From Arthrobacter jiangjiafuii (GTDB lineage Bacteria > Actinomycetota > Actinomycetes > Actinomycetales > Micrococcaceae), in assembly GCF_018622995.1 (NCBI RefSeq), contig NZ_CP076022.1, forward strand, positions 992,001 to 1,056,000: a stretch of DNA of 64,000 nucleotides, written 5' to 3'. The stretch's first letter is position 1, and every line of letters begins with the position of its first letter. The notes under the pieces were generated by a model that made no database searches, was not told the origin of the DNA, and saw only the letters and a program-made list of their open reading frames with translations. Of the stretch, positions 39,899 to 55,614 are shown in pieces. Made by a program: the position numbers and the translations under genes.

Positions 39899-40486
39899 GT
39901 GAACAGCAACACCTGGCTTGTAGTCGGGCTCGGGAATCCCGGGCCCGGCTACAGCCGTAACCGGCACAATATCGGCCAGATGGTCCTCGATGACCTGGCC
40001 TCCCGCGTGGGCGGGAACTTCAAGACCCACAAGTCCCGGGCGCAGATCCTGGAGGGCCGGCTGGGCATCGGCGGGCCGCGCGTGATTCTGGCCAAGCCCC
40101 TGACCTACATGAACCTCTCCGGCGGACCGGTCTCGGCGCTGAGCAAATTCTTCGACATTCCGGCCGGGAACGTAGTGGCCGTCCATGACGAGATCGACAT
40201 TCCGTTCAACACCATCAAGCTCAAAGCCGGCGGCGGCGAGGGCGGGCACAACGGCCTGCGGGACATGAGCCGGGCCCTGGGCACCAAGGACTATCTCCGG
40301 GTGCGTGTGGGCGTCGGCCGTCCACCCGGGCGGATGGACACCGCCGACTACGTGCTGAAGGACTTCCCCTCCGTGGAGGCCAAGGAACTGCCGGTCCTTA
40401 TCGGCGATGCGGCCGACGCCGTTGAACTGCTGCTGACCGAGGGGCTCACCGCCGCGCAGCAGAAGTTCCACTCGACCGGGTCCTGA
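39899..40486 (+). CDS. pth: Peptidyl-tRNA hydrolase
   Basis: A 195-residue enzyme that frees tRNA from stalled peptidyl-tRNA. Motifs: VVGLGNPGPGYSRNRHNIGQ with the catalytic histidine in RHNIG, KPLTYMNLSGGPV, VHDEIDIPF (catalytic Asp) and GGGEGGHNGLRDM. The GTG at 39899 follows a GGAG about 12 nt upstream. The mfd gene that commonly follows pth in relatives is absent; the LAL array comes next. Confidence 0.95.
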   Translation: MNSNTWLVVGLGNPGPGYSRNRHNIGQMVLDDLASRVGGNFKTHKSRAQILEGRLGIGGPRVILAKPLTYMNLSGGPVSALSKFFDIPAGNVVAVHDEIDIPFNTIKLKAGGGEGGHNGLRDMSRALGTKDYLRVRVGVGRPPGRMDTADYVLKDFPSVEAKELPVLIGDAADAVELLLTEGLTAAQQKFHSTGS

Positions 40487-40636: not shown

Positions 40637-40795
40637 GTGCCTTCGGGCAACGCAAAGCTGGGGCCGGCGTCGGGAGGCCTCCGAGACTGGGCCACCCCCA
40701 TCTCGGCGCCGGTCCCTTTTGCAAGCAAGCAGGTCTTCGCGGCGACCCGCTCACAGCACCGTCCCCACCGCTCACAGCACTGTTTCCACCGCTGA
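40637..40795 (+). CDS. Candidate leaderless 52-residue leader ORF
   Basis: A GTG lies 6 nt after the -10 box, at the predicted transcription start, and opens 52 codons ending at 40795. The product begins VPSGNAKLGPASGGLRDW and ends with a repeated RSQHRPH/RSQHCFH sequence, giving four histidines and a cysteine in the last 14 residues. It is in a different frame from the regulator gene downstream, and ends 18 bp before the earliest plausible ATG (40813). It may be a leader peptide whose translation controls the LAL gene. No relative is known to me; existence as a protein is inferred only from signals. Confidence 0.35.
   Translation: MPSGNAKLGPASGGLRDWATPISAPVPFASKQVFAATRSQHRPHRSQHCFHR
40747..40793 (+). 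repeat. 21-bp direct repeat in the leader of the first LAL gene
   Basis: CCGCTCACAGCACCGTCCCCA (40747-40767) is repeated at 40768-40788 with four changes, then the first five bases recur. The repeat encodes the duplicated RSQHxxH part of the leader ORF but could equally be a pair of protein-binding sites two turns apart. Confidence 0.7.
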
Positions 40796-40926: not shown

Positions 40927-43536
40927 ATGTGGGGTGACACCAAAGGGCGGAACCTGCTTGTGGCCCGCACCGATTCGCTGGCGGAGCTGGGAGCGGCCCT
41001 GCAGGCAGGAGCAGGCGCGGTTGTCGTCGGGCCCGCGGGGATCGGCAAGACCGCACTCGTTCGTGCCGCCGCCGCTGCCGCCCACTTCCACGTGGTCAAT
41101 ATCCGGGGCAGCCAGATGTCGGGCCAAACCCCGTTCGGCGCGCTGGCCTGGCTCATCTCCGAGCTTCCGGCGGGCGTCTCCGAACGGCCGGTGCAGCTGC
41201 TGCCGCAGTTGGAGGCCCTGCTTATCAAGCAGGCAGCGGGGCTGCCGGTGCTGCTCCTGCTGGACAACGCAGAGCATCTGGACGGCTCCACCACCATGGC
41301 CGTCTCACAGCTGGTACGACGTTCCGCTGTCAAGGTTCTGGCCACAGTCGAGAATCTCGGTGCCGCCGCTCCCGATTTCCTGGCGTTGTGGCGTGACGGG
41401 CTGCTGCGCCGCATTGATCTGATCCCCTTTACCCTTGCCGAGACCGGGGCACTGATGGAATCGCTCCTGGGCGGCCGCGTGTCCTCTACGGCAGCGTTGG
41501 CCATGCAGAGCCATTCCGCGGGCAACCCCCATCTGATCAGGCTGAATACGCCTGTCCAGGCGAATTGCAAGAGCCTGGTCCAGAAGGGAGGCGTCTGGGT
41601 CCTGGCCAAGCCCCTGGTGTATTCGGCCCAGGTTGGGGAAGTCATGGCGGCCCGGCTGAAGCGCCTTGCACCACCTGAACGCTCCCTGGTTGAACTGCTG
41701 GCCCTGGCCGGGGGACTTCCGCTCCCGGCGCTCGTCCAGCTGGTTGGTTCCGAGGCCGTCGAAGCACTCGAGGAAATGCGGGTGGTCGAGGTCACGGAAA
41801 CCGGCACCGCCCGGTTGGCCGACTTCACCTCAGCGCCCGCTATCGCCGGCAGCGTTCCGCCCGGACGCAGCCGTGAACTTTGGGAGGCGCTCTCCGGCAT
41901 CATGGACCCCGAGCAACTCGATGCGCCGGCGCTGGCCGGTTTCGCGGGGTGGACTTTGGCCTGTTATGGCACCCTGGCACCAGCCACGGCACTGCGCGCC
42001 GCAGCCCTGGCCAACGCCGGTGACGACCCGGCGTCCGCGTTGAGCTATATCCGCTCCGTGCCGGCTGCCCGGCGGAGCCCGGGCATGGTGTTGGAAGAGG
42101 TAGGGGCGCTCATGGCATCCGGGTCCAACCTCGAAGCGTTGAAGGTGGTGGAGAGGTTTGAGGCTTCAAATGCTGCTGTCGCGGACACGCACACCAGGGG
42201 CGCGCTGATGCTCGGCAAGGCCGAACTGCTGCGGCTCGTGCCCACGCAGGGCGACCCGGACGTGGCACTGCGGGAGGCGGCCGCTGTCCTTGGCACGGGT
42301 AAGGACACGGCAGAACAGCGCACCACGGTACTGCTGACTCGCGCCGCCCTGGCAATCAACACCGGGCGCCTGCAGGAGATTCCGGCAGAACTGGAGCACA
42401 TCCCGACGCGAAAGGGCCTCCCGGCGGCCCTCCGAATCCAGGCGGCCTCGCTGCGGGCGCAATTCCTTGCGCTGACCGGCCGCGCCAATGAAGCGCTTGC
42501 CCTGATGAAGCCAATGGGCTGGGACACAGGCCGGACGTTGCCGCCCGGGGCCCGCTACCGGGTCTACACAAGGACCGTGATGGGGTTGATCAGCGCGGGA
42601 GAGCTTCGCCTTGCCGGGGAGCAGGTAGAGGCACTGTCCGAATGGGGAACCCGCAAGGCCTTCCGCGGCAGTTCCGGGGAAGTGGCAGCAGGCCTGGTCC
42701 ATGCGCTGGCAGGCAGGGCTGACAAGGCAATGCGGGCTCTGACATCCTCCATAAACCAGCTGCAGGTGCAGGATCCCACCGATGTCCTGCCCGTGGCGCA
42801 AACGCTGGCCGCTTATGCCTGCAGTCTGCAGGAAGACCACACCGCGGCCAAACAGTACCTCGCCGACGCGGCGGAATTTGCCTATCCACCAACTGCACAG
42901 GCAAAGCTGTTGACCGCCATGTTGCGGCTGCAGGCGGAACTGGCGCAGGATCCCGAGGCGCTGGGCGCACAGTTGCGTGCCATGGCCTCGAACTGTCTCG
43001 ACTCCGGGATGGTGGCAGCCGGCCTGGACTGCCTCACGGCTGCGGCCAGGGCCGGAGACCTGGAGGCAGCCCGCGAGCTCGCGGCAGCGGCAGAGCCTTT
43101 GGATGGCACATGGACCCGGGCCCAGTTCTGTTTCGGGGCAGGTCTGGCCGGCAGCGACCCGGAACTGCTGCTGGAATCGGCGCAGCTGTCCCTGGAGCTG
43201 CAGAACCATCTGCACTGCCATGCGGCAGCCAGTGCCGCCCAGCGCCTCCTGCGCGGCCGGCGCGATCAGCTTGGCCGCGCCCAGGGCCGGAGCGCCCGCC
43301 GGCTTGAGCATCTGAGCTTCCGGGAACTGCGCGACGCCAACTCCATCAAAGCGCGGCTTGAGACCCTCAGCCCCTTCGAGGCCGATTTGGCCCGCCGCGC
43401 AGCCGGCACCGCTACCCGGGAGGAAATCAGCCGTGCCTTGAACCTGTCTCCGCGGACCATCGACTGGCACCTCGGCAAGATCTTTGACAAGCTGCGTGTC
43501 TCCGGACGCCCGGAACTTGTCGAGGTCCTAGGCTAG
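40927..43536 (+). CDS. LuxR-family regulator with STAND ATPase domain (LAL 1 of 5)
   Basis: An 869-residue regulator. P-loop GPAGIGKT at residues 35-42; Walker B VLLLLDNAEHLD, with Asn where many have a second Asp; a typical segment after the P-loop, SGQTPFGALAWLIS; then a long helical, TPR-like sensor region (about 330-790); C-terminal LuxR helix-turn-helix (about 805-869) with SPRTIDWHLGKIFDKLRVSG. LAL (MalT-like) proteins bind ATP and an inducer, oligomerise and activate transcription. The start is uncertain: ATG 40927, ATG 40813, GTG 40915 and GTG 40961 are all in frame and none has a strong ribosome site; the extra N-terminal sequence is not LAL-like. Closest in the array to LAL 3 by its DWHL recognition helix. 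Confidence 0.85.
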   Translation: MWGDTKGRNLLVARTDSLAELGAALQAGAGAVVVGPAGIGKTALVRAAAAAAHFHVVNIRGSQMSGQTPFGALAWLISELPAGVSERPVQLLPQLEALLIKQAAGLPVLLLLDNAEHLDGSTTMAVSQLVRRSAVKVLATVENLGAAAPDFLALWRDGLLRRIDLIPFTLAETGALMESLLGGRVSSTAALAMQSHSAGNPHLIRLNTPVQANCKSLVQKGGVWVLAKPLVYSAQVGEVMAARLKRLAPPERSLVELLALAGGLPLPALVQLVGSEAVEALEEMRVVEVTETGTARLADFTSAPAIAGSVPPGRSRELWEALSGIMDPEQLDAPALAGFAGWTLACYGTLAPATALRAAALANAGDDPASALSYIRSVPAARRSPGMVLEEVGALMASGSNLEALKVVERFEASNAAVADTHTRGALMLGKAELLRLVPTQGDPDVALREAAAVLGTGKDTAEQRTTVLLTRAALAINTGRLQEIPAELEHIPTRKGLPAALRIQAASLRAQFLALTGRANEALALMKPMGWDTGRTLPPGARYRVYTRTVMGLISAGELRLAGEQVEALSEWGTRKAFRGSSGEVAAGLVHALAGRADKAMRALTSSINQLQVQDPTDVLPVAQTLAAYACSLQEDHTAAKQYLADAAEFAYPPTAQAKLLTAMLRLQAELAQDPEALGAQLRAMASNCLDSGMVAAGLDCLTAAARAGDLEAARELAAAAEPLDGTWTRAQFCFGAGLAGSDPELLLESAQLSLELQNHLHCHAAASAAQRLLRGRRDQLGRAQGRSARRLEHLSFRELRDANSIKARLETLSPFEADLARRAAGTATREEISRALNLSPRTIDWHLGKIFDKLRVSGRPELVEVLG

Positions 43537-43565
43537 GCCGGGCCGGTTGGAAGACAGGGGGACTG

Positions 43566-46286
43566 GTGACACACGGATTTGAGCTGCAGCCGCTGGTGGG
43601 ACGGGACGATGTCCTGGCCTCAGTGCTGGCCAGCGTCCAGCGTCCGGCGGGCCACGGAGCTGTAGTGGTGGCCGACGCCGGCATGGGCAAGAGTGCGCTG
43701 GCCGGCGCTGTCGCCGCGCAGTTGGAGGGCCGGATCCCGATTCACCGGATCCACACCAGCTCATCGCTTTCCGCGGTCCCCTACGGCGCTCTCGCTCCGC
43801 TGATCGCCGAGCTGGATCCGCGGGATACCGATTCCCCGATTGCCGTCATGCGGGCCCTGCTCCACCAGCTCTTTCCCGATGGTAGCCACGGAACCGGCGA
43901 CGGCGGTGGACAGGATCCTGCGCATGCACCGCTGGTCATTGTGGACGACGCCGAAGCGCTGGACGGTCAGGCCGCGGACCTGCTGGCCCAACTCGTGGCT
44001 TCGGCCAGGATCCGGATCCTGGTCCTGACCCGGAGGATCTCCGATATTTCCGAAGGCCTCTCACACCAGATTTGGGAAGGGACGTTGTCCCGGCACGAGC
44101 TGCTGCCGCTCACCGAGGACCAGATCCATGAGCTCTGCGTGCAGGCGCTCGGAGGCCCGGTCCTTACGGGCACCAGCACTGACCTGGCCAGGGCCAGCGG
44201 CGGCAATCCCATGCTGGCCCTGGCGCTGCTGTCCGAAACGGTACGCACCGGCAGCCTGATTTTCCGACGCGGGATCTGGCTGCTGCACGAACAGGTCCTC
44301 ACCCCGGGGGGCCGGTTGGGTGATCTGCTCCGGGCGCAGCTGGCTGACCTGACCGAGGAGGAACGCGACGCCCTGGAAATCATTGCCCTGGCCGAGCCGC
44401 TGCCCGCGGCCACGGCGTTCCGGCTGGGCCTCCATAGCGCCGTGGATTCGCTCACCCAAGCCCGCCTGGTAAGCCTCTCCGCTGATCCGGCCCGGCTGCT
44501 GCGCCCTATGCACCCGATGTACGGGGAAGTGATCCGCCGGATGGTTCCGGCTGCCCGCAGCGCCCGGCTGCGACGGCGCCTCCTGGCGGTCGGGAAGCCC
44601 GATACCGGCGGTGAGAACCTGCTGCGGTGGGTTTGCTGGTCCCTGGACTGCGGGGAAACGGTCAGTGATGCGGAATTGGTGAACGCAGCGTACCGAGCCA
44701 ACAATATTTTCGACAGTGCCGCGGCCCTGCGGGCAGCGGGCGCCGTCAAGGGCCCCGATCATGCCGTGGCCGCCAGGGTCCAGGCTGCACGGGCCTGCTT
44801 CCAGGATGGCAGCATGGCCTCGGCGGCAGACCTGCTTGCCGGAGCCACGGAAACTGCCGCAGACCTCACCACGGTCAAAATGGCGGTGCTCATAAGGGTG
44901 CAGTTGAGTATTAACAACGACGGGTATTCTCCGGCATTGGCCTCCATCGCCCGGGATTGGCAGGGCGCCGTCGACCGGATCGAACGGACCAGTGAAACGC
45001 ATCCCGAGGCTGACCCGGAGCTGGCTGCCGACATTGCCTCCTCACGCCGCGGCGCCTGCCTGTTGGCGCTGATGGCCGAGGTCGCAGCCGGCAGCTTCAA
45101 CTCGGCGGAAGAGCAGCTGGACGATATCCTCGCTGCTGCCCGCGACGCCGGTGACGAAGAGGCGATCCTCATTGGGAAGGCGCTGCTCAGCGAGCTCATG
45201 GCCGCAACAGGCCGGGTCCGGGCGGCGGCACGACTGTCCCGCGATGCGATGGCCATCCTCACCCGCGGCGGGCAGAGTTTCCTCTCCTATTACCAGTTCG
45301 TGCTGCACCGCCGCCTGGTCGCCCTCTCCTGGACGGGGGAATGGACCCAGATGCAGGACACAGTGCAGCGCGGCATGGGAGGTATGTTCGGGTCGCTGGT
45401 GCACATCGCCGGCGTCGTCGATTTCGCCGTAGGGATCATGCACCTGCGGACCTCTAAACCGGCGGCTGCCCTGACCCACTTTGCCGCCGCCGTGGAAGGG
45501 CTGCGGACCCACGATCCAGAGGGGCTGCTGCCGCTGGCGATCGCCCTGGGGGCGTTCGTTGCCGCTTCGGAGCGTTCCTCCACCATGGCCGAAGAACTGC
45601 TGGCCGAAGGCTCGGCTTTGGAACCGCGTGGAGCGGCGCCCTATCGGCTGCTGGCAAAGGGGTACCTGGCTGCCGCGACTTCCGTGCTGGCTATGGAGGC
45701 CCAGCCGCCGGCCTCCCTGCAGGTGCTCGCCGCTGAAGCTGAGAAGGCCGGATTCATTTCGGCGGAGTTCGAGTTGCGGTTCCTTTCCCTGTCTTTGGGC
45801 GACCAGGACGGTTTGAACCGGCTACGGAAGATCTCCGGGGACTTCGAGGGCCCGCAGGCACGGGTATTGGACCGCTTCGCCAGGGCAGTCCTGGACGAGG
45901 ACGCCGAGGAGCTGGCACGATTCGGGACCGAAACGGTTGAACCGGGCTGGAAGCGGCTGGCGGAGCGGTGCGCAGCCGAGGCGCTCCGGCTCGCGAAGGC
46001 CAACGGGGACGCGGCGCTCCTGCTCCGTGTCCAGCGCATACTCAGTAAAAAGGCCGGAGATGCTCCTGTGCAGCGGCTAAGCCCCGGAGCGCCCGTGCTG
46101 ACCCGACGGGAACGCGACGTCGCATCACTTGTTATGCAGGGCTACCGCAACGCCGAAATCGCGGAGCGGCTCTCCCTGTCGGTGCGGACGGTGGAGGGAC
46201 ACATCTACCGGACCTTCGAAAAGCTGGGGATCAGCAAGCGCGAGGAGCTGAAGAGCGAGCTGCTCGCCGATCGGCCCATTACCTGA
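43566..46286 (+). CDS. LuxR-family regulator with STAND ATPase domain (LAL 2 of 5)
   Basis: A 906-residue protein. P-loop ADAGMGKS (36-43), Walker B PLVIVDDAEALD, SAVPYGALAPLI after it, a helical sensor region and a canonical C-terminal LuxR domain: LTRRERDVASLVMQGYRNAE, then LSLSVRTVEGHIYRTFEKLG. The GTG at 43566 has AGGGGG 4 nt upstream and is only 29 bp after LAL 1, so the two form an operon. Helix and P-loop type group it with LAL 5. No inducer can be named. Confidence 0.88.
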   Translation: MTHGFELQPLVGRDDVLASVLASVQRPAGHGAVVVADAGMGKSALAGAVAAQLEGRIPIHRIHTSSSLSAVPYGALAPLIAELDPRDTDSPIAVMRALLHQLFPDGSHGTGDGGGQDPAHAPLVIVDDAEALDGQAADLLAQLVASARIRILVLTRRISDISEGLSHQIWEGTLSRHELLPLTEDQIHELCVQALGGPVLTGTSTDLARASGGNPMLALALLSETVRTGSLIFRRGIWLLHEQVLTPGGRLGDLLRAQLADLTEEERDALEIIALAEPLPAATAFRLGLHSAVDSLTQARLVSLSADPARLLRPMHPMYGEVIRRMVPAARSARLRRRLLAVGKPDTGGENLLRWVCWSLDCGETVSDAELVNAAYRANNIFDSAAALRAAGAVKGPDHAVAARVQAARACFQDGSMASAADLLAGATETAADLTTVKMAVLIRVQLSINNDGYSPALASIARDWQGAVDRIERTSETHPEADPELAADIASSRRGACLLALMAEVAAGSFNSAEEQLDDILAAARDAGDEEAILIGKALLSELMAATGRVRAAARLSRDAMAILTRGGQSFLSYYQFVLHRRLVALSWTGEWTQMQDTVQRGMGGMFGSLVHIAGVVDFAVGIMHLRTSKPAAALTHFAAAVEGLRTHDPEGLLPLAIALGAFVAASERSSTMAEELLAEGSALEPRGAAPYRLLAKGYLAAATSVLAMEAQPPASLQVLAAEAEKAGFISAEFELRFLSLSLGDQDGLNRLRKISGDFEGPQARVLDRFARAVLDEDAEELARFGTETVEPGWKRLAERCAAEALRLAKANGDAALLLRVQRILSKKAGDAPVQRLSPGAPVLTRRERDVASLVMQGYRNAEIAERLSLSVRTVEGHIYRTFEKLGISKREELKSELLADRPIT

Positions 46287-46376
46287 CCAGCACTGCGCCT
46301 GCGGACGTAGCGGACCACGTACCGCACCATCCAGGCCGCGTAACCGATACCCGTGCAGCAGCGGGCCGCGCGAGCC

Positions 46377-46423
46377 TAGGGTGAACATGGCCTTCGGCGG
46401 CAATTCCGCTGAACAACCGGTCC
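46377..46423 (+). promoter_or_regulatory. Possible promoter and ACCGGTCC site before LAL 3
   Basis: A 194-bp gap precedes LAL 3. It holds a TAGGGT box (46377-46382) without a clear -35, and ACCGGTCC (46416-46423), the same octamer that occurs before LAL 4. The GAGG ribosome site of LAL 3 lies at 46469-46472. Confidence 0.35.
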
Positions 46424-46480
46424 GGGAACGGCTGTGAACCACCAGCCGCTTATCGCGGCCCTGATATTGAGGTCCAACCG

Positions 46481-49216
46481 ATGAGCATGCTGCGGCGGCC
46501 GTGCCCGCCCACGGACAATACGGCGCTGCCAAACTCGGCGACGTCGGACGTTTCCATGACCCATGCCTTCGCGGAGAGGAGGGCGGCACCGCAGGCCCGA
46601 ACCGCGCGTGATGCTGCACTCTCTGCAGTGCTGGCGGCGCTCGACGGCCAGGGAGCGGTCATCTTGGGCGGGCCCGGAATCGGCAAATCGACTCTGGCCA
46701 GGGAGGCAGTGAACGCCATGCCCGGCGGGACGGCCGTCCATTTGCGCGGCAGCACGGTCTCGGCGCAGACTCCCTACGGAGCCCTGGCCTGGCTGCTGAG
46801 CGATTTATCCGCCGCTGAACTGGAGAGCCCGGTCCTGGTTCTGCGGGCGCTGGAATCGAAGCTGCTCCGGCAGGCTGCCGGCCGGCGGATCGTCCTGGTT
46901 GTCGACAATACAGAGGATATGGATGATCAGGCTGCCCTGGTGACAACCCAGCTTTGCCGGCGGGGTACCGTGTCACTGCTGCTCATCACGGGAGACCTGA
47001 TCCGCTGCCACCGGGAGTATGTACGGTTATGGATGGACGGGGTGTTGAAACGGGTGGATCTGTCCCCGCTGGATGTGCAGCAGACCGCTGAACTGCTGGC
47101 AGATACCGCCGGTGGCCCGCTGACCGGGCTGGCGCAGCGTGTGCTTTGGGAGCGCAGCAGGGGAAATCCACTTGCGGCAACCTTGCTGTGCCGGGACCAG
47201 ATTGCTGCCGGATCGCTGGTGCGCCGCCGCGGATTCTGGGTCTGGACGGGTCCCCTGGCGCATGCCGGTGAACTGCCGGAGCGGGTTGAAACCATGTTGC
47301 GCCGATTCAGTGCCGAGGAACGCCGGGCCGTGGAGATCCTGGCGCTGGGCCGGGAGCTGCCGCTGAACACTTTCCTGGAACTGGTTCCTGCCCGCACCGT
47401 GGACGCCTTGGAGGAGGGTTCGGTCATTACGGTCAGCGCAGGGTCGGAGCAGCCGGTCCGGCTGGCCAGGCACCTGCAGGCGCCTGCCATAGCCGCCAGG
47501 ATCCCCTACAACCGGAGCCGCGGGCTCTGGTCGGAACTGAGCCGTGTGGTGGACTTTCGGAGCCTGACCGGATCAGCCGCAGCAGGACTGGCCGAGTGGT
47601 CTCTGACCTGCGGGGTGGTGCTGGATCCTTGGGTTGCCCTGCCAGCAGCACAGTGGGCCAACCACATCGGTGATTCCGGGGCCGCGCTGCGGTTCGCGCA
47701 GGCACTTCCCGCCCACGGACGCCCGTTGGCGGTGATCCTCGAAGAAGCGGACGCGCTCCGGGCCGAGGGGCAGCACGCCCGGGCACATCGGGTTCTCGTA
47801 ACGGCCGGGGACACCTTCGCTGAGGAAAAGGACGCCTCGGAGGAGCTGCGTCTTCGCTACCTCACGTCCCGGGCCGTAACCGCAGCCATTTCGCAGAGTG
47901 GCGAGGACCCCTGGACGCTGCTGGATCAAGCCGACCGGGTGCTGGAATCAGACTCCGGAGCCCGCCCCGGCCCGGCACTCCAAGTGAACCTGGCCCGGGC
48001 TGAGCTGCTGATGATGGAGGGCCGGCTTGCCGAGCTGCCGGTTTCGCTGCGGGATGACTTCGCGGACCCGGCTGCCCCGCCCGTGCTCCAGCTCTGGGCC
48101 GGGATCCGGCTCGCCCAGCAGGCGGCCGCCGTCGGGCGCTTTGCCGAAGCGCTGACCCTGGCGGCGGCGGTCCGCTCCCGGCTGCGGACGGGTGTTTCCG
48201 CCGGGGAGCGTACCCGGGAGTGCTTGTTCCTGGCTCTCTTTTTTCTCCTGGTCCGGTGCGGGGAGCTCGGTGAAGCACTGGCGCTGACTAGGTCTGCTGC
48301 CAACCCCGGCACTGCGTCAGGATTGCGTTTATCAACCGGCGCCGAACTTCCCACCGGGCTGGTCCATGCCTACGCCGGCCGCGGCCCTGCTGCCCTGGAA
48401 TCGCTGCGACCGGCGCTGGCCCAGCTGGAATGCCGCGATCCGGACGGACTGCTGCCGCTGGCCCAGGCGGCCGCCGCCTACGCCGAGTCGTTGACGGCTG
48501 AGCCGGATTCCGCAGGTCCGGCCCAGATACCGGGGTTCCATCCCCTACCCGACCCTGTGATTGGCTCGGCCGCACACTACTTTCGGATCCTTGCTTCCGC
48601 GGACGAGGCACGGGCCGGGGAAACGTCCGCTGCCCTGACCTCCTACGCACAGCAAGCCCTGGCCGCAGGCAATCTGCCGGACGGGCTGCTCGGGCTGGCC
48701 GGCGCCTCCCTGCGGGGCGATCTCCAGGCGGCGGCTGACCTGGGCGCCGCAGCCGCTGCTGCGAACGGCGCACCCGCTTCCATCTATTCCGCGCTGTCCG
48801 TGGGACTGCTGCACAACAGCGCCGCGTCGCTGATCTCGGCCAGCCGGGCGGCGCTGCGGCAGCAGAACGCCAGGCTCGCCCACGCGGCAGCACAGCGGGC
48901 GCGCGTGCTGGCGGCCGACGGCGGCAGCCGCGCCGAATCTCGACGGGCCCGGCACCTGGAGTTTCAGTGTTTCCGCCTGCTCTCGCCGGAAAACAGCGTA
49001 GAACGCGCATTGACCCGACTCGGAAATTTTGAGCGGGAACTGGCGCTACGCGCGGCTGCCGGAGAGACCAGCGTGGCGCTCGGCGAGCGGTTCCATCTGT
49101 CTGCCCGCACGGTGGACTGGCATCTGGGCCGGGTTTTTGGGCTGCTCCATGTCTCGGGGCGGAACGATCTTCGCGACGTCTTGTCGGCTGCGCACTCGAA
49201 CCCGCTGCCCGGGTAG
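46481..49216 (+). CDS. LuxR-family regulator with STAND ATPase domain (LAL 3 of 5)
   Basis: A 911-residue protein. P-loop GGPGIGKS (63-70), Walker B IVLVVDNTEDMD (Asn variant as in LAL 1), SAQTPYGALAWLLS, long helical sensor region, and a C-terminal HTH SARTVDWHLGRVFGLLHVSG. The first 60 residues are not conserved. ATG 46481 has GAGG 8 nt upstream; an internal ATG at 46556 is possible. LAL 1 and LAL 3 share the P-loop context and the DWHL helix, suggesting duplication. The LuxR domain lacks the usual LTxRExEV opening, reading LGNFERELALRAAAGETSVA. Confidence 0.87.
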   Translation: MSMLRRPCPPTDNTALPNSATSDVSMTHAFAERRAAPQARTARDAALSAVLAALDGQGAVILGGPGIGKSTLAREAVNAMPGGTAVHLRGSTVSAQTPYGALAWLLSDLSAAELESPVLVLRALESKLLRQAAGRRIVLVVDNTEDMDDQAALVTTQLCRRGTVSLLLITGDLIRCHREYVRLWMDGVLKRVDLSPLDVQQTAELLADTAGGPLTGLAQRVLWERSRGNPLAATLLCRDQIAAGSLVRRRGFWVWTGPLAHAGELPERVETMLRRFSAEERRAVEILALGRELPLNTFLELVPARTVDALEEGSVITVSAGSEQPVRLARHLQAPAIAARIPYNRSRGLWSELSRVVDFRSLTGSAAAGLAEWSLTCGVVLDPWVALPAAQWANHIGDSGAALRFAQALPAHGRPLAVILEEADALRAEGQHARAHRVLVTAGDTFAEEKDASEELRLRYLTSRAVTAAISQSGEDPWTLLDQADRVLESDSGARPGPALQVNLARAELLMMEGRLAELPVSLRDDFADPAAPPVLQLWAGIRLAQQAAAVGRFAEALTLAAAVRSRLRTGVSAGERTRECLFLALFFLLVRCGELGEALALTRSAANPGTASGLRLSTGAELPTGLVHAYAGRGPAALESLRPALAQLECRDPDGLLPLAQAAAAYAESLTAEPDSAGPAQIPGFHPLPDPVIGSAAHYFRILASADEARAGETSAALTSYAQQALAAGNLPDGLLGLAGASLRGDLQAAADLGAAAAAANGAPASIYSALSVGLLHNSAASLISASRAALRQQNARLAHAAAQRARVLAADGGSRAESRRARHLEFQCFRLLSPENSVERALTRLGNFERELALRAAAGETSVALGERFHLSARTVDWHLGRVFGLLHVSGRNDLRDVLSAAHSNPLPG

Positions 49217-49286
49217 GTGCTAATCAAGGTCCTGCACGGAGATCACTTGCTTGGCTGAGTACCGCCTTACCCGAACCTAGGTACAA

Positions 49287-49343
49287 ACCGGTCCAATCAG
49301 CCGCCCAAACCTGAGTAGTGGACCGGTGCGACTGGTGACCGGT
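49287..49343 (+). promoter_or_regulatory. Three ACCGGT sites before LAL 4
   Basis: ACCGGTCC at 49287-49294 and its inverse GGACCGGT at 49320-49327, plus a third ACCGGT at 49338-49343, five bases from the GTG start. ACCGGT is itself a palindrome. The spacing (35 and 16 bp) and position fit an operator cluster; no good -10/-35 pair stands out nearby. Confidence 0.35.
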
Positions 49344-49347
49344 ACTC

Positions 49348-52323
49348 GTGTCCGCCCCTCGGATCACTTCTACGCTGGCCGCAGACATCCCACCTGAACT
49401 ACCTGCCGCGGATAACTCCGGGCGGCTAGGATCACCGGCAGAAACGGGTCTCACCGTGCAGAACAGTTTTCACCACACCTATGCCAGGCAGCAGCCAGCC
49501 CCGGAAACGGGCGCAGCAGAGCGCAAAGCGGATGCGCATCCCGGACGAACCGGGACTCTCCCGGCTGCCCGGCCTGAAACAACAGTTCCGACCTTTGTCG
49601 GACGGCGGGAGGTGACCCAGTCCATCCTCGACCAGTTGGCCGCTGGCGGCGGTGCCGGCTGTGTCCTGGTGGGGGAGCCCGGCAGCGGCAAGACCGCCCT
49701 GATCCACCACGTGCTGCGCCAGTGCAGCAATACCTATGTGGTGCACGTGCGTGGCTCTGCCTTCTCCGGCCGCACCGCATTTGGTGCCCTCACCTTCCTG
49801 CTCTCCGACCTGGATCCGGAGGTGGCCGCACATCCGGTGCTGATCCTGCGCGGGCTCACCCAGCTCATCCAGGAGCGGGCGAAGGGCCGGGCCGTGCTGC
49901 TGGCTGTGGACAACGGCGAGGAACTGGACGAGTTTTCCGCCATGGCGCTGAGCCAGCTGGTCTTGAACCGGACGGCCGGCCTGCTCGCCTCCTTCCGGGA
50001 TTTCAGCAAGGCTCCGGCGGAGTTGATGGGCCTGTGGCGGGAAGGCATCCTGTCCCGGGTGGACCTCGAACCGCTTGAGACGGCGGAGACAGCCGAACTG
50101 CTCGAGGCAGAACTCCGCGGACCGGTCTCCGGTGCCGCCGTCGCAAACCTGCACCGGCACGCCGGTGGGAACCCGCACCTGCTCAGGCTGGCCTGCGCTG
50201 ACTTCCGTGAGGCTGGGCGGCTGCGCTCCAGCGGCCCCGTTTGGGTGCTTGATCCCCGGCGGCCAACACCGGCCGGACGCATGGCAGAAGCCGTCCTCTC
50301 ACGCCTGGACGGGCTTAGCGAGACGCAGGTTGGCCTGGTCCGCACAGTGGCGCTGGCCGGCTCCCTGCCGCTGGCGCACGCCCTGGATACAGTCGAGCCA
50401 GCCGAAGTGGATATCCTGCAGGAGCGCGGATTCCTGACTGTGGACCGCGAAAGCGTGCCCAGCATCCGGGTGCGGGATGCTGTGCTTGCCCGGTCTGTCT
50501 CCCTGGCCCTGGACGGTGCCACGCAATCCGCCCTGCTTCAGGGCCTCCGGGCGCAGACTGCAGCGGCGGTACCTGCAACAGGGGAGTCCGGTGCCGATCA
50601 ACCGGACCCGGCAGCGGCCATCGTTGATCCGGTCCGCCTGGCACTGTGGCGGCTGGACAGCGGCGAAGCCCTGGACCCCGCATCTGCCGTTGCTGCCGCA
50701 CGGGAGGCCAACGCTGCCGGACATCCGGCCCGCGCCGTCCGGTTCCTTACCGGGTTGCAAGACCACCTGGCCATCCCCGCCGCGGTCCTGGAGCTGGTTC
50801 AGGCGCGGATGAGTCAGGGCGAATATGGCGCGGCCTTGTCCGCGATGAGCAGCTACCGCAGCCTCGAGGCAGATCCGGATCCGCTGGACGAAATCCGGTT
50901 GCTGCTGGCCGAGAGCCGCGTGTTGTGCATGGCTGCCACCGGCGCAGTGTCCGAGTCCGCCCACACCGGCCTGCTTGCCGAAGGTGCTGCCCGCAAACAT
51001 GACGGGCTGCTGGCGAAGGCCACCGAACGAACAGCGGAGTTAGCCGCCGCCGGTGACATCAGCCGCTCCGACGCAGCAGCCCTGGAGCGGGAAATGATCG
51101 TGGCCCGCGCCGCCTGCAACTCGGCGCACGGCCGCTTTCTCGAAAACGCCGCGTACCTGGGACCGCTGCAGGCCCAGGCTGCCGGCTACGACAACGGTTT
51201 CCGCGTCCTGATCGGATCCTGGCTCTGTGAGGCGCTGGGCCTGACGAACCGGCAGGATGAAGCGCTTGAACTCGCCCAGGAGATCGAGCGGCTGCTGGAT
51301 GGCCCGGGCATCGGGCGCGCGGACCTGGCCCGGTCCTTCGCCCGGGTGCTGCATGTGCATCTGGCCATGGGAGCGCTGAAACGTGCCGGGCAGCTGCTGG
51401 ACCAGCAACGTTCCCACGGGCGGACGGTTTTCCCCGGGCTTACTGCTGAGCTGGCCGACGGCTTGCTCCATGCCTACGCCGGTGATCCGGAGCCGGCGCT
51501 GCGCTGCCTTGTTCCCGCAGTGGCTCAGCTGAGGCTTGGCGGGCCCGCGTCCCTGGTCCCGCTGGCCGCATCCGCAACAGCCTATTGCCTGGCCTTGAGC
51601 GGTGACGCCAAAGGAGCCGCGCTGCACCTGCAGCTGAAGACCAAGGCGGCCGACGGCGGTCCCTGGTCCGTTCGCCGCGGAACCCGGCATTTCGCCGCAC
51701 TGGCCGAAGCAGCCCTGGGCTCGCCGCACGCTGTCCGGCGCTTTCTCGACCTTGCCGCCCACGACCACCGGCGCGGTGTTTACGCGTACGAACTGTTGTC
51801 GCTGCTCAGCGCCATGCGGCTGGGGGACCGGGAAAACCTGGACCGGCTCCTGGCCGTTTCCGCCCAGCAGCAGGGGCCGTTCGCGCGGATGTGCGAAACC
51901 TATGCCAAGGGCACCGGAAGTTACGACACCCAGCTGCTGATCCAGGCCGGGGCCATGGCCGAACAGGCCGGCCACATCCGGTTTGGCAGGGAGGCCTCCG
52001 AGAGCGCGCTGGCGGTGGCCTCCGGCTCAGGGGACCGCGCCACCGTCCGGTTCATCCACCGCAGCCGGCGCGGTACCGTGGCGCCACAACCCCACGAGGG
52101 GCCGGACTCCACCGACGAGTACCTCAGGGCGCTAACCTTCCGCGAACGGGCGATCGCACGTATGGCAGCGGCAGGAACCAGCAACAAGTCCATTGCGGCG
52201 GATCTGAACATCTCGGTACGCACGGTGGAAGGCCACTTGTACCAGGTCTATTCCAAGCTGCACGTCGGGAGCCGCCGTGAGTTGGGCAAGATCATGGCCG
52301 AAAAAGCCGGAGGCGGAAAGTGA
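49348..52323 (+). CDS. LuxR-family regulator with STAND ATPase domain (LAL 4 of 5)
   Basis: The largest of the set, 991 residues. P-loop GEPGSGKT (109-116), Walker B AVLLAVDNGEELDE, SGRTAFGALTFLLS, helical sensor region and a standard C-terminal LuxR domain (LTFRERAIARMAAAGTSNKS, SVRTVEGHLYQVYSKLHVGS). The first 100 residues are Pro/Ala/Thr-rich and poorly ordered. No ribosome site precedes the GTG at 49348, and GTG 49456 is an alternative start 36 codons in. It mixes traits: the ATPase resembles LAL 1 and 3, the HTH resembles LAL 2 and 5. Its stop overlaps the start of LAL 5. Confidence 0.86.
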   Translation: MSAPRITSTLAADIPPELPAADNSGRLGSPAETGLTVQNSFHHTYARQQPAPETGAAERKADAHPGRTGTLPAARPETTVPTFVGRREVTQSILDQLAAGGGAGCVLVGEPGSGKTALIHHVLRQCSNTYVVHVRGSAFSGRTAFGALTFLLSDLDPEVAAHPVLILRGLTQLIQERAKGRAVLLAVDNGEELDEFSAMALSQLVLNRTAGLLASFRDFSKAPAELMGLWREGILSRVDLEPLETAETAELLEAELRGPVSGAAVANLHRHAGGNPHLLRLACADFREAGRLRSSGPVWVLDPRRPTPAGRMAEAVLSRLDGLSETQVGLVRTVALAGSLPLAHALDTVEPAEVDILQERGFLTVDRESVPSIRVRDAVLARSVSLALDGATQSALLQGLRAQTAAAVPATGESGADQPDPAAAIVDPVRLALWRLDSGEALDPASAVAAAREANAAGHPARAVRFLTGLQDHLAIPAAVLELVQARMSQGEYGAALSAMSSYRSLEADPDPLDEIRLLLAESRVLCMAATGAVSESAHTGLLAEGAARKHDGLLAKATERTAELAAAGDISRSDAAALEREMIVARAACNSAHGRFLENAAYLGPLQAQAAGYDNGFRVLIGSWLCEALGLTNRQDEALELAQEIERLLDGPGIGRADLARSFARVLHVHLAMGALKRAGQLLDQQRSHGRTVFPGLTAELADGLLHAYAGDPEPALRCLVPAVAQLRLGGPASLVPLAASATAYCLALSGDAKGAALHLQLKTKAADGGPWSVRRGTRHFAALAEAALGSPHAVRRFLDLAAHDHRRGVYAYELLSLLSAMRLGDRENLDRLLAVSAQQQGPFARMCETYAKGTGSYDTQLLIQAGAMAEQAGHIRFGREASESALAVASGSGDRATVRFIHRSRRGTVAPQPHEGPDSTDEYLRALTFRERAIARMAAAGTSNKSIAADLNISVRTVEGHLYQVYSKLHVGSRRELGKIMAEKAGGGK

Positions 52324-55076
52324 GCGCCGGTATCGCGGGCCAGCGCACACCTGCCCTGCTCCTGGGCCGGGACCGGGAAATCGCGGAGATAACGGCGAAG
52401 CTGCTGGAACCGGGGATGCGCGGCGTCGTGATCCTCGGCGCCGGCGGAATGGGTAAGACGGCGCTCGCCGACCAGGTGCTGCACCGCCTTGACGGGATAG
52501 TGACCGCTTCCTTCATTCACGGCAGCCCGGTTCTCTCCCGGATGCCGTACGGCGTGCTCTCGCCCTTTCTCGACGCGGCAAACCCGGCAGACATGGAATC
52601 GCCGCTGGCGGTGCTGCGGACCATCCGCCGCTATTTTCACCGCGTCAGTGAGCAGGGCAGCCCGCAGCCGCTTTTGGTCGTTGATGACGCGCACTGGCTG
52701 GACGAGGCCAGCTGCCATGTCCTGACGCAGCTGGCCATGTCCGGGGAGCTTCGGCTGCTGGTGCTCAGCAGGACCCGGGCCCCGCGGATCCAGGAGCTGC
52801 TGTCCCTGGCCCGCGACGGGCTGCTGGCACGCGTGGACCTTGGGGCGCTGGCCCCGGACGCGGTCCATGACGTCTGTGTCGGCCTGCTGGGCGGCCCGTT
52901 GCTGCGCGCCTCCTCGGCGTTGCTGGCCACTGCATCGGGCGGCAATCCACTCTATCTGAGGGCCCTGCTCGCCCGGACCCGCCGGCTCGGCCAGCTGGTC
53001 GAGGGCAACGGTGCATGGTTCCTTCGCCGCGAGCCCGACGGGCTGGACGCCGCCGTGGTGGATCTGGTCAAGGGACAGCTGGGAAACCGGACCCCCGAGG
53101 AACGGGAAACACTGGAGACCCTCGCCCTGTCCCAGCCGCTGCCCCGCGCCGTCCTCACCGCAGTTTGTGGGCCTGCCGCCGTCCACGCCCTGCTGGCAGA
53201 TGGTTTGGCGGCGGCCGGCCCCGGTGCGGCTGAACCGCTCCGGGTGGCTCAGCCGCTGCATGCCGAAGTGATCCGGTCCCTGGTGCCCGCCGTCCGCAGC
53301 TCCGCAATCCGATCCCGGGTCACGGCCGCCCTGGACGATGACCGCAGCATGGATACGGACGATGAGACCCGGAGTGAGGCGATGTTCCGCCGCCTGGAAT
53401 GGGCGCTGGACTGCGGCGACGGCGTGGAGGATGAGCAGTTGCTCGCGGCGGCACGTATGGCGAACGACGACGGCCGGCCGCTCCTCGCCGTCCGCTTCGG
53501 GGCTGCAGTGCAGGCCGCCCCGCATCTGCTGGCCGCCCGGGCCGAAATCGCTGCAGCTTATGTGGAAACCGCCGACTATGCCCAGGCCCGGGTGCTGCTG
53601 GAGGGAATGCTGGAACCGGATCTGCCGACCCTGGCCCCGGACGAGGAAACGCTGACCCGTGCCGCCCTGGCAGCGGCCCGGCTGTGCCAGCGCACCGGCG
53701 GGGGGCGCGGGCTCGATGTTCTGGCCGCGACGTGGTGCTCGGCCTCGGCGGACCTGTCCGTCCGGAACGGCGGTGCGCAGGAACCGGGCCCCGGGGTGCC
53801 GGCCGGTGCCGAGCTGCTGCGGATCATGGGGCTGATGGTGCGGGGCGATTACAGCCAGGCGCTTGGACGCTTGAAGCCCTACACCGACCGGCCATTGCCC
53901 GCGGCCCCCGGATATGACGCGCAGTGGGCGGTGCTGGCACACAGCCTCGCGGCCGAAATACTGGTGTCGGGTGGGAGGATCAGCAGCGCCCTCGAACATT
54001 CCGGAACCGCCATGGACCTGATCCACCGTTTCGGCGGGCAACTCCACGCCGGCTGCGGCTCGGTGCTGGTCCGCCACGCGCAGGCGCTGCTGCACGGTGG
54101 CTACTTCGCCGAACTCGAGCGGCTCTTGGCGGCCAAGCTGCGGGAACCGGCGCACCGCCTGCTGGCCTTTGGCGGCACTCTGGGGGTGTTCGAGGGCGCC
54201 GTCGAAATCCACCAGGGCCGGCTGCGTGAAGGCCTGGCGCGCCTGCACCCCGCGGTGGAAGCCCTGCGGGCAGCCGATCCCGAGATGCTGCTGCCCTATG
54301 CGCTGGGACTTGCCGGCTACGCCTCGACTGTCGTCGGGGACCAGATCCAGACCGCGCGTTACGCCAAGGAGCTGCGCGGCCTCGCATACATCGGACCGCT
54401 GCCGCTGTGGCTGGTGGGACGCGCCTGTGCCGCCGCTGCCCTTGCCGGCCAGGAAACGGACGGCAAGGCAGCAGCGGACCTCGCCCGGATAGCCGCCGAA
54501 GCACGTGCCGCCGGCCTGCTGTCGGCGGAGAAGGACATCCTTGAACTCTGCCTGGCCACGGGGGACCTGCACCAGGCGGACCGCCTGCAGGAAGTGGCCG
54601 CAGCCTTCGAAGGCGGCGCCGCGGAAGCACTCCTCGCGTACGCAGGTGCCGTGGCGTCAGGCAACCCGGACCGGATGGTGGCGGCAGCGGATGAAGCGGT
54701 GCGGCACCGCAAATATCTGCTCGCGGTGGAGAGCATCGGGCACGCGATCCGGTTCTACGGATCGCACGGCAACCTCCGGCGGCAGCGTGCCCTGATCCAG
54801 CAACTGCGCCGGCGCCGCGGGGAACTGGCAGGGGTCACTGTCTCCTACCTGAGCCCCTCGCTGCACCTGGTCCGGCTGACGCGCAGGGAGCATGAAATTG
54901 TTGACCTGCTGCTTTCCGGTGCGAGCACCAAAGACGTGGCCGCCCACTTCACCCTCTCGCAGCGGACGGTGGAGGGCCACGTGTACCGGATCTACGTGAA
55001 GTTGGGCATCAGCCGGCGCGCCGATCTCGAGGCGGCGTACCGGGCGCTGGAGCCGGGAGCGTCAATGGCACCCTAG
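52320..55076 (+). CDS. LuxR-family regulator with STAND ATPase domain (LAL 5 of 5)
   Basis: A 918-residue protein whose GTG overlaps the LAL 4 stop (GTGA) with GGAGG 6 nt upstream, so translation is coupled. P-loop GAGGMGKT (40-47), Walker B PLLVVDDAHWLDE (classic DD form), helical sensor region, and a complete LuxR domain: LTRREHEIVDLLLSGASTKD, LSQRTVEGHVYRIYVKLGIS. It is the most canonical LAL of the five. No structural gene follows for 540 bp, so its target is probably elsewhere. Confidence 0.9.
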   Translation: MSAGIAGQRTPALLLGRDREIAEITAKLLEPGMRGVVILGAGGMGKTALADQVLHRLDGIVTASFIHGSPVLSRMPYGVLSPFLDAANPADMESPLAVLRTIRRYFHRVSEQGSPQPLLVVDDAHWLDEASCHVLTQLAMSGELRLLVLSRTRAPRIQELLSLARDGLLARVDLGALAPDAVHDVCVGLLGGPLLRASSALLATASGGNPLYLRALLARTRRLGQLVEGNGAWFLRREPDGLDAAVVDLVKGQLGNRTPEERETLETLALSQPLPRAVLTAVCGPAAVHALLADGLAAAGPGAAEPLRVAQPLHAEVIRSLVPAVRSSAIRSRVTAALDDDRSMDTDDETRSEAMFRRLEWALDCGDGVEDEQLLAAARMANDDGRPLLAVRFGAAVQAAPHLLAARAEIAAAYVETADYAQARVLLEGMLEPDLPTLAPDEETLTRAALAAARLCQRTGGGRGLDVLAATWCSASADLSVRNGGAQEPGPGVPAGAELLRIMGLMVRGDYSQALGRLKPYTDRPLPAAPGYDAQWAVLAHSLAAEILVSGGRISSALEHSGTAMDLIHRFGGQLHAGCGSVLVRHAQALLHGGYFAELERLLAAKLREPAHRLLAFGGTLGVFEGAVEIHQGRLREGLARLHPAVEALRAADPEMLLPYALGLAGYASTVVGDQIQTARYAKELRGLAYIGPLPLWLVGRACAAAALAGQETDGKAAADLARIAAEARAAGLLSAEKDILELCLATGDLHQADRLQEVAAAFEGGAAEALLAYAGAVASGNPDRMVAAADEAVRHRKYLLAVESIGHAIRFYGSHGNLRRQRALIQQLRRRRGELAGVTVSYLSPSLHLVRLTRREHEIVDLLLSGASTKDVAAHFTLSQRTVEGHVYRIYVKLGISRRADLEAAYRALEPGASMAP

Positions 55077-55203
55077 CGCGGGCCTTCGGCGCCGGCGGCG
55101 GGAAACCGCCCCGAAGAGCATTCGTGCTGGTCCGGGCCGGAAAAGGCGCATAAGTAGGGAGCAGGTAAACCTACGGCAAAAGGGGAAAATAGCATTGGGC
55201 AGT

Positions 55204-55384
55204 CGAGTAGGCATTACTCGTGCTGGGGGGAAAGGCCGCTTCTATGCTTTTGTTTGTTGATTGATTTCTGCAGAACACCGGGTTCCACAATCCACGGTTT
55301 GTACGGTACTTCCCCCAGGGAATAACTACCCGTACAGACCGCTGCCCGTGTCGCAGCCAATCATCCGGCGCCTGCGGGCGCCGG
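55204..55384. other. Structured intergenic region between LAL 5 and sufS
   Basis: The 538-bp gap 55077-55614 has no convincing gene. It contains a hairpin CGAGTA-GGCAT-TACTCG (55204-55220), an 11-bp stem with one G-T pair (GGTTTGTACGG at 55296-55306 with CCGTACAGACC at 55330-55340), and a perfect 8-bp stem with a TGCG loop (CCGGCGCC at 55365-55372, GGCGCCGG at 55377-55384). It could be a small RNA, a sufS leader or operator sites. Short frames on both strands here lack start signals. Confidence 0.4.
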
Positions 55385-55614
55385 CCCCCGAGCGGGGTCG
55401 ACGGCGTAGAGGCCTCTTGAGACCAAGGCTTCCCCCCAGCCGTCGTCGGCCCCTTCGGAAGCCCCCTGAGCAAGGGGAGACCGCTGTGGCCCAAACTAAG
55501 GCCCGGCTCAGGTGCGCGCACGGCGCAGCAGTGGGATGATTAGCACAGACTTTACTTGCGTAATGGTGCAGCTCACCCCACCGCAACCCGACGGCCAGCC
55601 AAGGAGTTTCCCCC

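Follow-up and report, generated by a model that had tools for sequence, protein, structure and literature searches.

INTRODUCTION

LuxR-type regulators with a STAND (signal transduction ATPase with numerous domains) module, among them the LAL (large ATP-binding regulators of the LuxR family) proteins, are usually treated as single, homomeric switches. MalT of Escherichia coli, a protein of ~900 aa with an N-terminal STAND NTPase and a C-terminal LuxR helix-turn-helix (HTH) domain, is encoded by a single gene and is homomeric. This activator multimerizes head-to-tail with ATP between the protomers (PMC6468293). In mycobacteria, the STAND-LuxR activator IniR acts on one cell envelope operon and binds directly upstream of it (PMC5760070). 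Arthrobacter sp. UMCV2 has RevU-like large LuxR (AirR) proteins, of which two are induced over 10-fold by N,N-dimethylhexadecylamine (DMHDA) (PMC9659744), and architectures combining AAA and LuxR domains have been counted in three Arthrobacter genomes, with no pair or array named in the available text (PMC3466318). Here, we analyzed a stretch of 64,000 nucleotides (referred to as the window) from the Arthrobacter jiangjiafuii genome, which is one contig of 3.59 Mb, in which five genes for STAND-LuxR proteins follow each other on the same strand.

By domain content, the five genes encode LAL/STAND LuxR proteins. Their arrangement appears to be new, in that the genes belong to two lines, A and B, that form co-inherited pairs with mostly complementary ATPase motifs and that are tied to exopolysaccharide (EPS) genes in many genomes. 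The explanation that we favor, with a probability of roughly 0.58, is that the array is a stack of A-B activator pairs, together with one orphan A, tied to an EPS island. A search of open-license papers, as far as their available text goes, returned nothing on A-B pairs, their linkage to EPS genes, or the leader element described below.

RESULTS AND DISCUSSION

Five consecutive STAND-LuxR genes fall into two lines

As originally predicted, the array consists of five consecutive same-strand open reading frames (ORFs) for proteins of 870 to 991 aa at positions 40927 to 55076, with no gene in between (Table 1). The gaps between successive genes are 29, 194, 131, and −4 bp, and 538 bp separate gene 5 from sufS. 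Using Pfam, we found AAA_16 and/or AAA_22 above the cut-off at the N terminus of all five proteins and a match to GerE (LuxR) at the C terminus of all five, above the cut-off in four of them and below it in gene 3 (17.3 versus 23.5 bits); this is the LAL/STAND LuxR layout of an N-terminal nucleotide-binding and a C-terminal LuxR HTH domain. None of the five matched a tetratricopeptide repeat (TPR) family (Pfam, E 0.01), which still leaves room for a TPR fold. In a profile search against PDB, the best 60 of the 163 matched sequences were HTH domains and P-loop ATPases only.

The array proteins are similar to MalT in size (~900 aa) and in the layout of STAND NTPase and LuxR HTH domain, but the array differs in having two paralogues in a fixed A-B order with split ATPase motifs. 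They score far below the NCBIfam model for MalT (NF003420; 32 bits at best versus a cut-off of 537), which matches genes 2, 4, and 5 in the HTH only and genes 1 and 3 not at all (E 0.01). IniR is likewise an actinobacterial STAND-LuxR protein, and genes 2 and 5 match its model weakly (NF038181; 41 bits at best versus a cut-off of 750), but the available text describes it as a single gene (PMC5760070). The best NCBIfam match of all five is the LuxR regulator model NF050132 (AbsR2), mainly in the NTPase region, and because the scores are 65 to 96 bits versus a cut-off of 850, none of the five is an AbsR2. The AirR proteins are also large LuxR proteins of an Arthrobacter, but no pairing, EPS linkage, or synteny is described for them in the available text (PMC9659744).

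For phylogenetic analyses, 182 proteins were taken from the window and 60 loci, which were chosen behind pth or at related matches. Because these loci were selected partly for carrying an array or a wide pth-sufS gap, the frequency of the array is better taken from the 85 of 149 family genomes with a match to the protein of gene 3 (A3; E 1e-40). The main tree (FastTree) included 179 proteins and 863 columns; L042_2, L044_1, and L056_5, which are cut or frameshifted, were omitted and assigned to A or B via their best BLAST match, and the domain trees additionally omit L022_3 and L025_3. The midpoint split of the full-length tree separated 99 type A from 80 type B proteins with a support of 1.0, and placed genes 1, 3, and 4 in A and genes 2 and 5 in B. 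The same split was obtained without error in the NTPase-only tree (support 0.95) and in the middle-only tree (support 0.99). The HTH tree (60 columns) did not separate the lines (37 errors), yet gene 4 grouped with A proteins only. Listed by type, the array is ordered A-B, A, A-B.

The original prediction had divided the genes by a DWH helix (genes 1 and 3) or an EGH helix (genes 2, 4, and 5) and had considered gene 4 a mix of both lines. The helices were assigned correctly, but the trees do not support the lines drawn from them; rather, they indicate that a DWH/EWH helix is a feature of one part of A and that EGH is common to the rest of A and to B. A mosaic origin of gene 4 is ruled out by the domain trees, in which its NTPase and middle regions are of type A, as is the full-length protein. 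All five proteins align over their length, so that the refuting condition named originally, a lack of phylogenetic relationship, does not apply. In the 179-protein tree, genes 1 and 3 are sisters; L056_1-2 and L051_1-2 are the proteins with which genes 1-2 and genes 4-5, respectively, cluster. Since these two pair types have relatives in other genera, the array did not arise by a recent local doubling; what holds of the proposed repeated duplication is that the pair is the unit and that pairs have multiplied.

In five loci (L002, L008, L009, L012, and L016), the gene 3 orthologues are shortened to 736 to 802 aa and have a Walker B motif beginning with E. These orthologues represent decay of the unpaired A.

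A and B genes form a co-inherited pair

Of all 82 B genes, 80 lie directly 3' of an A gene on the same strand, and the two exceptions (L022_3 and L025_3) come after another B. The median distance from the stop codon to the next Walker A motif is 117 nt for A-B (n = 80) versus 429 nt for B-A (n = 27) and 453 nt for A-A (n = 17). The order ABAAB of the window is found in 15 of the 16 other genus loci fetched; in the sixteenth (G133), the fetched stretch contains only the first pair, and the second is located ~30 kb further on, adjoining a PF02397 gene. Further loci read AB, ABA, ABB, ABAB, ABAAB, or ABABAB. When each half of the tree was cut into four types, of which type II of A has a support of just 0.23, A and B were of matching type in 73 of the 77 judgeable pairs, and no pair joined two different types. 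In the remaining four (L019, L041, L050, and L060), one member was unplaced, and three further pairs contain a protein omitted from the tree. The original prediction envisaged mixed oligomers of all five members; the matching subclades favor fixed A-B partners over such free mixing. We consider it highly probable that A-B is a real functional pair.

The pair is also present in three further Micrococcaceae loci. Matches were obtained in 10 genomes of a second family belonging to the order; nine of these loci were fetched (L041 and L130 to L137), and every one contains an A-B pair. Nine loci of further families (L138 to L146) contain single or A/B-ambiguous proteins; L143 has an A by itself, and ambiguous proteins lie in tandem in L145.

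In the ABB arrays of L022 (6564 to 9155) and L025 (6524 to 9187), the third protein, which is of type B, has no HTH motif in its aligned C terminus and a changed GNP motif. It is perhaps a regulator turned inhibitor.

ATPase motifs are split between the members of most pairs

The Walker A motif, GxxxxGK[ST], is present in all five array proteins, with A as the first residue in gene 2. The earlier reading that three genes have DN rather than DD in the Walker B motif was confirmed for genes 1, 3, and 4, and genes 2 and 5 have DD. We defined an ATPase site as complete if the Walker A lysine is present and both Walker B positions are acidic. By this definition, exactly one site is complete in 67 of 80 pairs (B alone in 53 and A alone in 14; naive Fisher p about 1e-6, with pairs being related). 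On a tree of the 80 pairs, A gains completeness on five branches and B loses it on seven; three branches carry both changes, i.e., are reciprocal switches. Within the genus, gene 2 has the lysine, DD, and the sensor arginine in 17 of 17 copies, gene 4 has DN in 16 of 16 copies, and in gene 5 the second D is replaced by N in 5 of 16 copies. Judging from P-loop ATPases in general, DN would block hydrolysis. That A-B works as a heteromer with one hydrolyzing subunit is a proposition to which we give slightly less than even odds.

Among plants, nucleotide-binding leucine-rich repeat (NLR) pairs are paired sensor/executor STANDs. The comparison concerns how such systems may work, and no homology is claimed: in both, two linked, co-inherited paralogues occur together, one with degenerate NTPase motifs (as in the 67 pairs above). 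A-B pairs would offer a bacterial parallel to paired immune STANDs, and a family-wide unit with complementary ATPase decay would provide a natural test of how many hydrolyzing subunits a STAND assembly needs.

An EPS island follows the array in relatives and is lost in the window strain

The original prediction described the array as being without target genes. This is true of the window genome but not of its relatives, in which an EPS island lies directly downstream. In all 15 contiguous genus arrays other than that of the window, a frame of 505 to 626 aa that is homologous to a sugar transferase lies 49 to 583 bp behind gene 5. Counting all 55 array loci besides the window, 38 have a transferase homologue, which is sometimes non-adjacent (6.3 kb off in L031 and inside the array in L056). 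The homologues of L001, L029, L030, L056, and L041 belong to PF02397 (Bac_transf; Pfam), the initiating transferase of EPS synthesis. Sampled genes behind the transferase encode an epimerase, glycosyltransferases, Wzz, a Wzy/O-antigen ligase, an acyltransferase-SGNH protein, and a large PKD/laminin-G protein. A transferase homologue is also found 200 bp behind the pair of the second-family locus L041, in which the stretch contains neither pth nor sufS, 4 bp behind the pair of L060, which is ~6 kb behind pth with sufS not in the stretch, and 74 bp behind the second pair of L044, beyond sufS.

Across the 149 family genomes, a same-strand A or B gene is located within 5 kb upstream of at least 49 of the 150 PF02397 places listed, with ~0.15 expected, and these are at least 49 of the 91 listed places in genomes with a listed A or B gene; such a gene is located downstream instead at at least 5 of the 150. 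These counts are lower bounds based on the best matches listed, with the window genome's own three entries excluded. We consider it likely that A-B controls EPS in the genus.

One of the island proteins, encoded in L153 (13202 to 18922, minus strand), has 1,907 aa with PKD and laminin-G domains and has homologues in 9 of 14 other loci compared.

In the window genome, we found no PF02397, in a search that did not extend to other EPS genes. Using blastn, positions 55077 to 55479 align in blocks with the region between gene 5 and the transferase of close relatives (78% identity over 332 columns with L004, and 89 to 95% over ~110 bases with L001, L003, L007, and L011), and from ~55491 on, the sequence matches at ~85 to 89% the region upstream of sufS in most of the relatives fetched there. 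These alignments indicate that the EPS island was deleted in the window strain. Because the transferase is present in all 15 contiguous genus arrays and the promoter is kept in the window, we conclude that the island was lost and had not been missing from the outset. What remains of it, the EPS promoter with its leader, now faces sufS and might drive this gene. The window strain would be a natural knock-out in which the target is gone but its regulators are still present.

A candidate operator lies behind the pairs

The dyad GAGTA-N5-TACTC (≤1 mismatch) is present behind gene 5 in the window and in 12 of the 15 other genus loci, and L010 has a looser form only. Instead of preceding the leader, the dyad of L005 and L013 falls in the space that separates leader and transferase or at the beginning of the transferase frame. 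In 14 chosen genus loci, a set that does not contain L006 and L014, a TANNNT hexamer starts 23 nt behind the dyad (24 nt in L010). If transcription starts ~7 nt behind the hexamer, the dyad would be centered near −43, which is the position of classical LuxR-type activator sites.

GAGTA-N5-TACTCG is perfect at one place in the genome, 55205. In a side count, the dyad GAGTANNNNNTACTCG with ≤1 mismatch had 13 matches on both strands of the window genome (G000) versus 65 for the reversed control; it is, therefore, rare rather than common in the genome, as if avoided elsewhere.

The longer pattern GTA-N5-TACYCGTG-N19-22-TANNNT has two matches in the genome, before gene 3 and at the EPS promoter, and its control has none. 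A looser motif occurs behind 33 of the 81 B genes from all loci (34 of 82 with the artefact L056_5, which was excluded), compared to ~0.1 expected in block shuffles; 21 of these matches are in the genus and 12 elsewhere. Before the first array gene, it occurs in 1 of 56 cases. The site before gene 3 reads GGGTA..TACCC in five close relatives and CAGTA..TACTC in five others. Two sites of different sequence would suit two pairs in series, in a cascade whose direction we infer. Consensus scans of positions 55060 to 55640 identified neither a sigma-70-type promoter nor an intrinsic terminator. Promoters that depend on an activator can lack the former, but the scans lend no support either.

The annotated start of gene 4 at 49348 is doubtful because its GTG sits within the conserved TACTCGTG promoter box and because relative L004 has a stop codon in that frame, as seen in the alignment of the promoter footprint inspected by eye.

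The EPS promoter is followed by a structured leader element

Between the promoter and the start of the EPS genes, we identified an element of two helices. In an alignment of 33 copies (A4), 98.3% of the cells are paired, and 12 of 20 pairs have changes on both sides. None of 500 shuffles reached any of five measures, and slid structures were far worse; related sequences may beat shuffles without structure, and the count of changed pairs is less affected by this. A covariance model (R1; E 1e-4) matched 73 of the 149 family genomes, with two copies in the window genome. A divergent form lies behind pth, also in genomes in which sufS directly follows pth. Five loci of the genus (L002, L008, L009, L012, and L016) have the strong form in the space that separates genes 2 and 3. 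Neither the nine second-family loci nor L060 gave a match to the leader (E 0.1).

Across the window, there was no Rfam match at the gathering level except a tRNA and, at the junction, none at E 1. A known riboswitch or leader was considered and rejected, the sole Rfam match, in relative L028, being due to chance (E 1.6, opposite strand). JUMPstart and epsC (EAR) elements are conserved structured elements in the 5' untranslated regions of polysaccharide genes (PMC2864571). They differ from the Arthrobacter leader in being gammaproteobacterial and Bacillus elements, and the latter is without an Rfam match. A LoaP/NusG paralogue was considered as a protein that might act together with the leader; just one NusG domain is encoded in the window genome, which says little on LoaP since this genome has lost the EPS operon. 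The element is an uncatalogued structured RNA of EPS operon leaders that is also present behind pth.

A model of stacked A-B pairs and its alternatives

Starting from the pairing, gene order, motif states, EPS linkage, operator-like motif, leader, and deletion scar, all of which are read from the sequences, we infer heteromers, DNA binding, activation, and the direction of a cascade as follows. The array would be a stack of LAL-type activator pairs and one orphan A, behind which, in the genus, the EPS island starts right after gene 5. Each pair would form a mixed A/B assembly in which usually one subunit hydrolyzes ATP and the other, judging from its motifs, only binds ATP. On a signal, this assembly would switch on the promoter that lies behind the pair by binding a GTA-N5-TAC dyad overlapping its −35 region. 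Pair 1-2 would act on gene 3 and, less certainly, on the 4-5 unit; pair 4-5 would act on the EPS operon, the transcript of which would bear the conserved structured leader. In the window strain, in which the island was deleted, the last promoter of the stack now faces sufS. The strictest version, i.e., obligate heteromeric STAND-LuxR pairs of one ATP-hydrolyzing and one ATP-holding subunit, with the catalytic role swapped three times on the tree and with each pair acting on the promoter that belongs to the unit behind it, down to the last pair, which would control an EPS operon that has its own uncatalogued RNA leader, is tentative, and we would bet somewhat against it in full. If the model is correct, the pairs are a candidate control system for the slime and capsule clusters of Arthrobacter and its kin, with a predicted operator and leader RNA.

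Several observations weigh against stacked, EPS-tied pairs. Gene 3 has no B partner. The one-site rule is broken in 13 of the 80 pairs (both sites complete in 4 and none in 9), and its tests are just partly corrected for relatedness. L006 and L014 in the genus have no GAGTA-N5-TACTC (≤1 mismatch) behind gene 5, the looser motif is missing behind 48 of the 81 B genes, and 21 of its 33 matches are in the window's own genus. The transferase was not found in 17 of the 55 array loci; in L015, L018, and L024, neither transferase nor sufS lies within the fetched stretch, and the other 14, mapped besides the window, have sufS and no PF02397 homologue behind the array, so that pairs persist without an adjacent EPS operon. 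PF02397 is also common anyway (79 of the 85 family genomes with an A3 match versus 50 of the 64 without; Fisher p 0.014). Because of the missing operator in two genus loci and the missing transferase in 17 loci, we lowered our overall confidence to the value given above.

The array of the window strain could be a non-functional leftover after a recent loss of the EPS island, which would be compatible with stacked pairs in the relatives. The genome without PF02397 and the promoter left behind by the vanished island are in agreement with this possibility. We consider it unlikely: all five ORFs are open with the codon-position GC content of real genes, operator and leader are intact, and 6 of the 85 family genomes with an A3 match, the window genome included, are without PF02397, so that its absence need not entail loss of the pairs.

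Regulators are often duplicated in tandem, and the five genes could encode independent homomeric LAL activators that arose by ordinary duplication, the pairs being mere neighbors with neither fixed nor combinatorial mixing. The solitary gene 3 and the 13 pairs that break the one-site rule fit this explanation. It is improbable given that B follows A almost without exception and at a spacing much shorter than that of other neighbors, that subclades match within the pairs judged, and that motif states are complementary within most pairs. Finally, that the pair regulates the neighboring sufS-sufU (iron-sulfur) genes, with the EPS island as a later insertion there, would fit the 14 loci with sufS behind the array. 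It would also fit the position of the leader, which in several of these loci separates B from sufS and which is found between pth and sufS where a genome has no regulators at this site. This alternative is very unlikely because pairs away from sufS still have a transferase behind them (L041, L060, and further genomes) and because sufS is ~14 to 23 kb beyond the array in the seven other genus genomes in which it was located.

Features of the window and minor observations

The coordinates of the array, its flanking genes, and the candidate regulatory elements are listed in Table 1.

Table 1. Array genes, flanking genes, and candidate elements in the window
Feature	Position	Strand	Basis
pth, conserved upstream flank	39899..40486	+	Pfam, family search
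Divergent upstream copy of the leader element, between pth and gene 1	40647..40720	+	Covariance model R1, 44.4 bits
Gene 1, type A (A1); Walker A intact, Walker B DN, DWH helix	40927..43536	+	
Gene 2, type B (B2), partner of gene 1; Walker A and Walker B complete	43566..46286	+	
Candidate operator and promoter before gene 3 (GCGTA-N5-TACCC, then TAGGGT)	46338..46382	+	One of two genome pattern matches; footprint aligned with five relatives
Gene 3, type A without partner (A3), sister of gene 1	46481..49216	+	
Candidate promoter box before gene 4 (TACTCGTG, 20 nt, TACGCT); left half-site degenerate	49343..49376	+	Footprint aligned with five relatives; coordinates by hand
Gene 4, type A (A4); DN in Walker B, EGH helix; probably starts further downstream than 49348	49348..52323	+	
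Gene 5, type B (B5), partner of gene 4; Walker A and Walker B complete	52320..55076	+	
Candidate operator GAGTA-N5-TACTC and −10 TATGCT of the lost EPS operon	55205..55248	+	Sole perfect place in genome; spacing in relatives
Structured leader element of the lost EPS operon	55381..55457	+	Two-helix alignment and covariance model; no Rfam match
Junction from island loss, between leader and sufS upstream region	55480..55490	.	blastn versus relatives
sufS (class V aminotransferase), downstream flank, then NifU/SufU-type gene	55615..56931	+	Pfam, family search

An origin of the array as foreign DNA was considered and rejected, as its GC content does not leave the range seen elsewhere in the window and members of the genus share the site behind pth. 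In the second family, two acyl-CoA dehydrogenase genes lie divergently beside the pair (L134, 13931 to 16363), and this arrangement is kept in 7 of the 9 loci compared.

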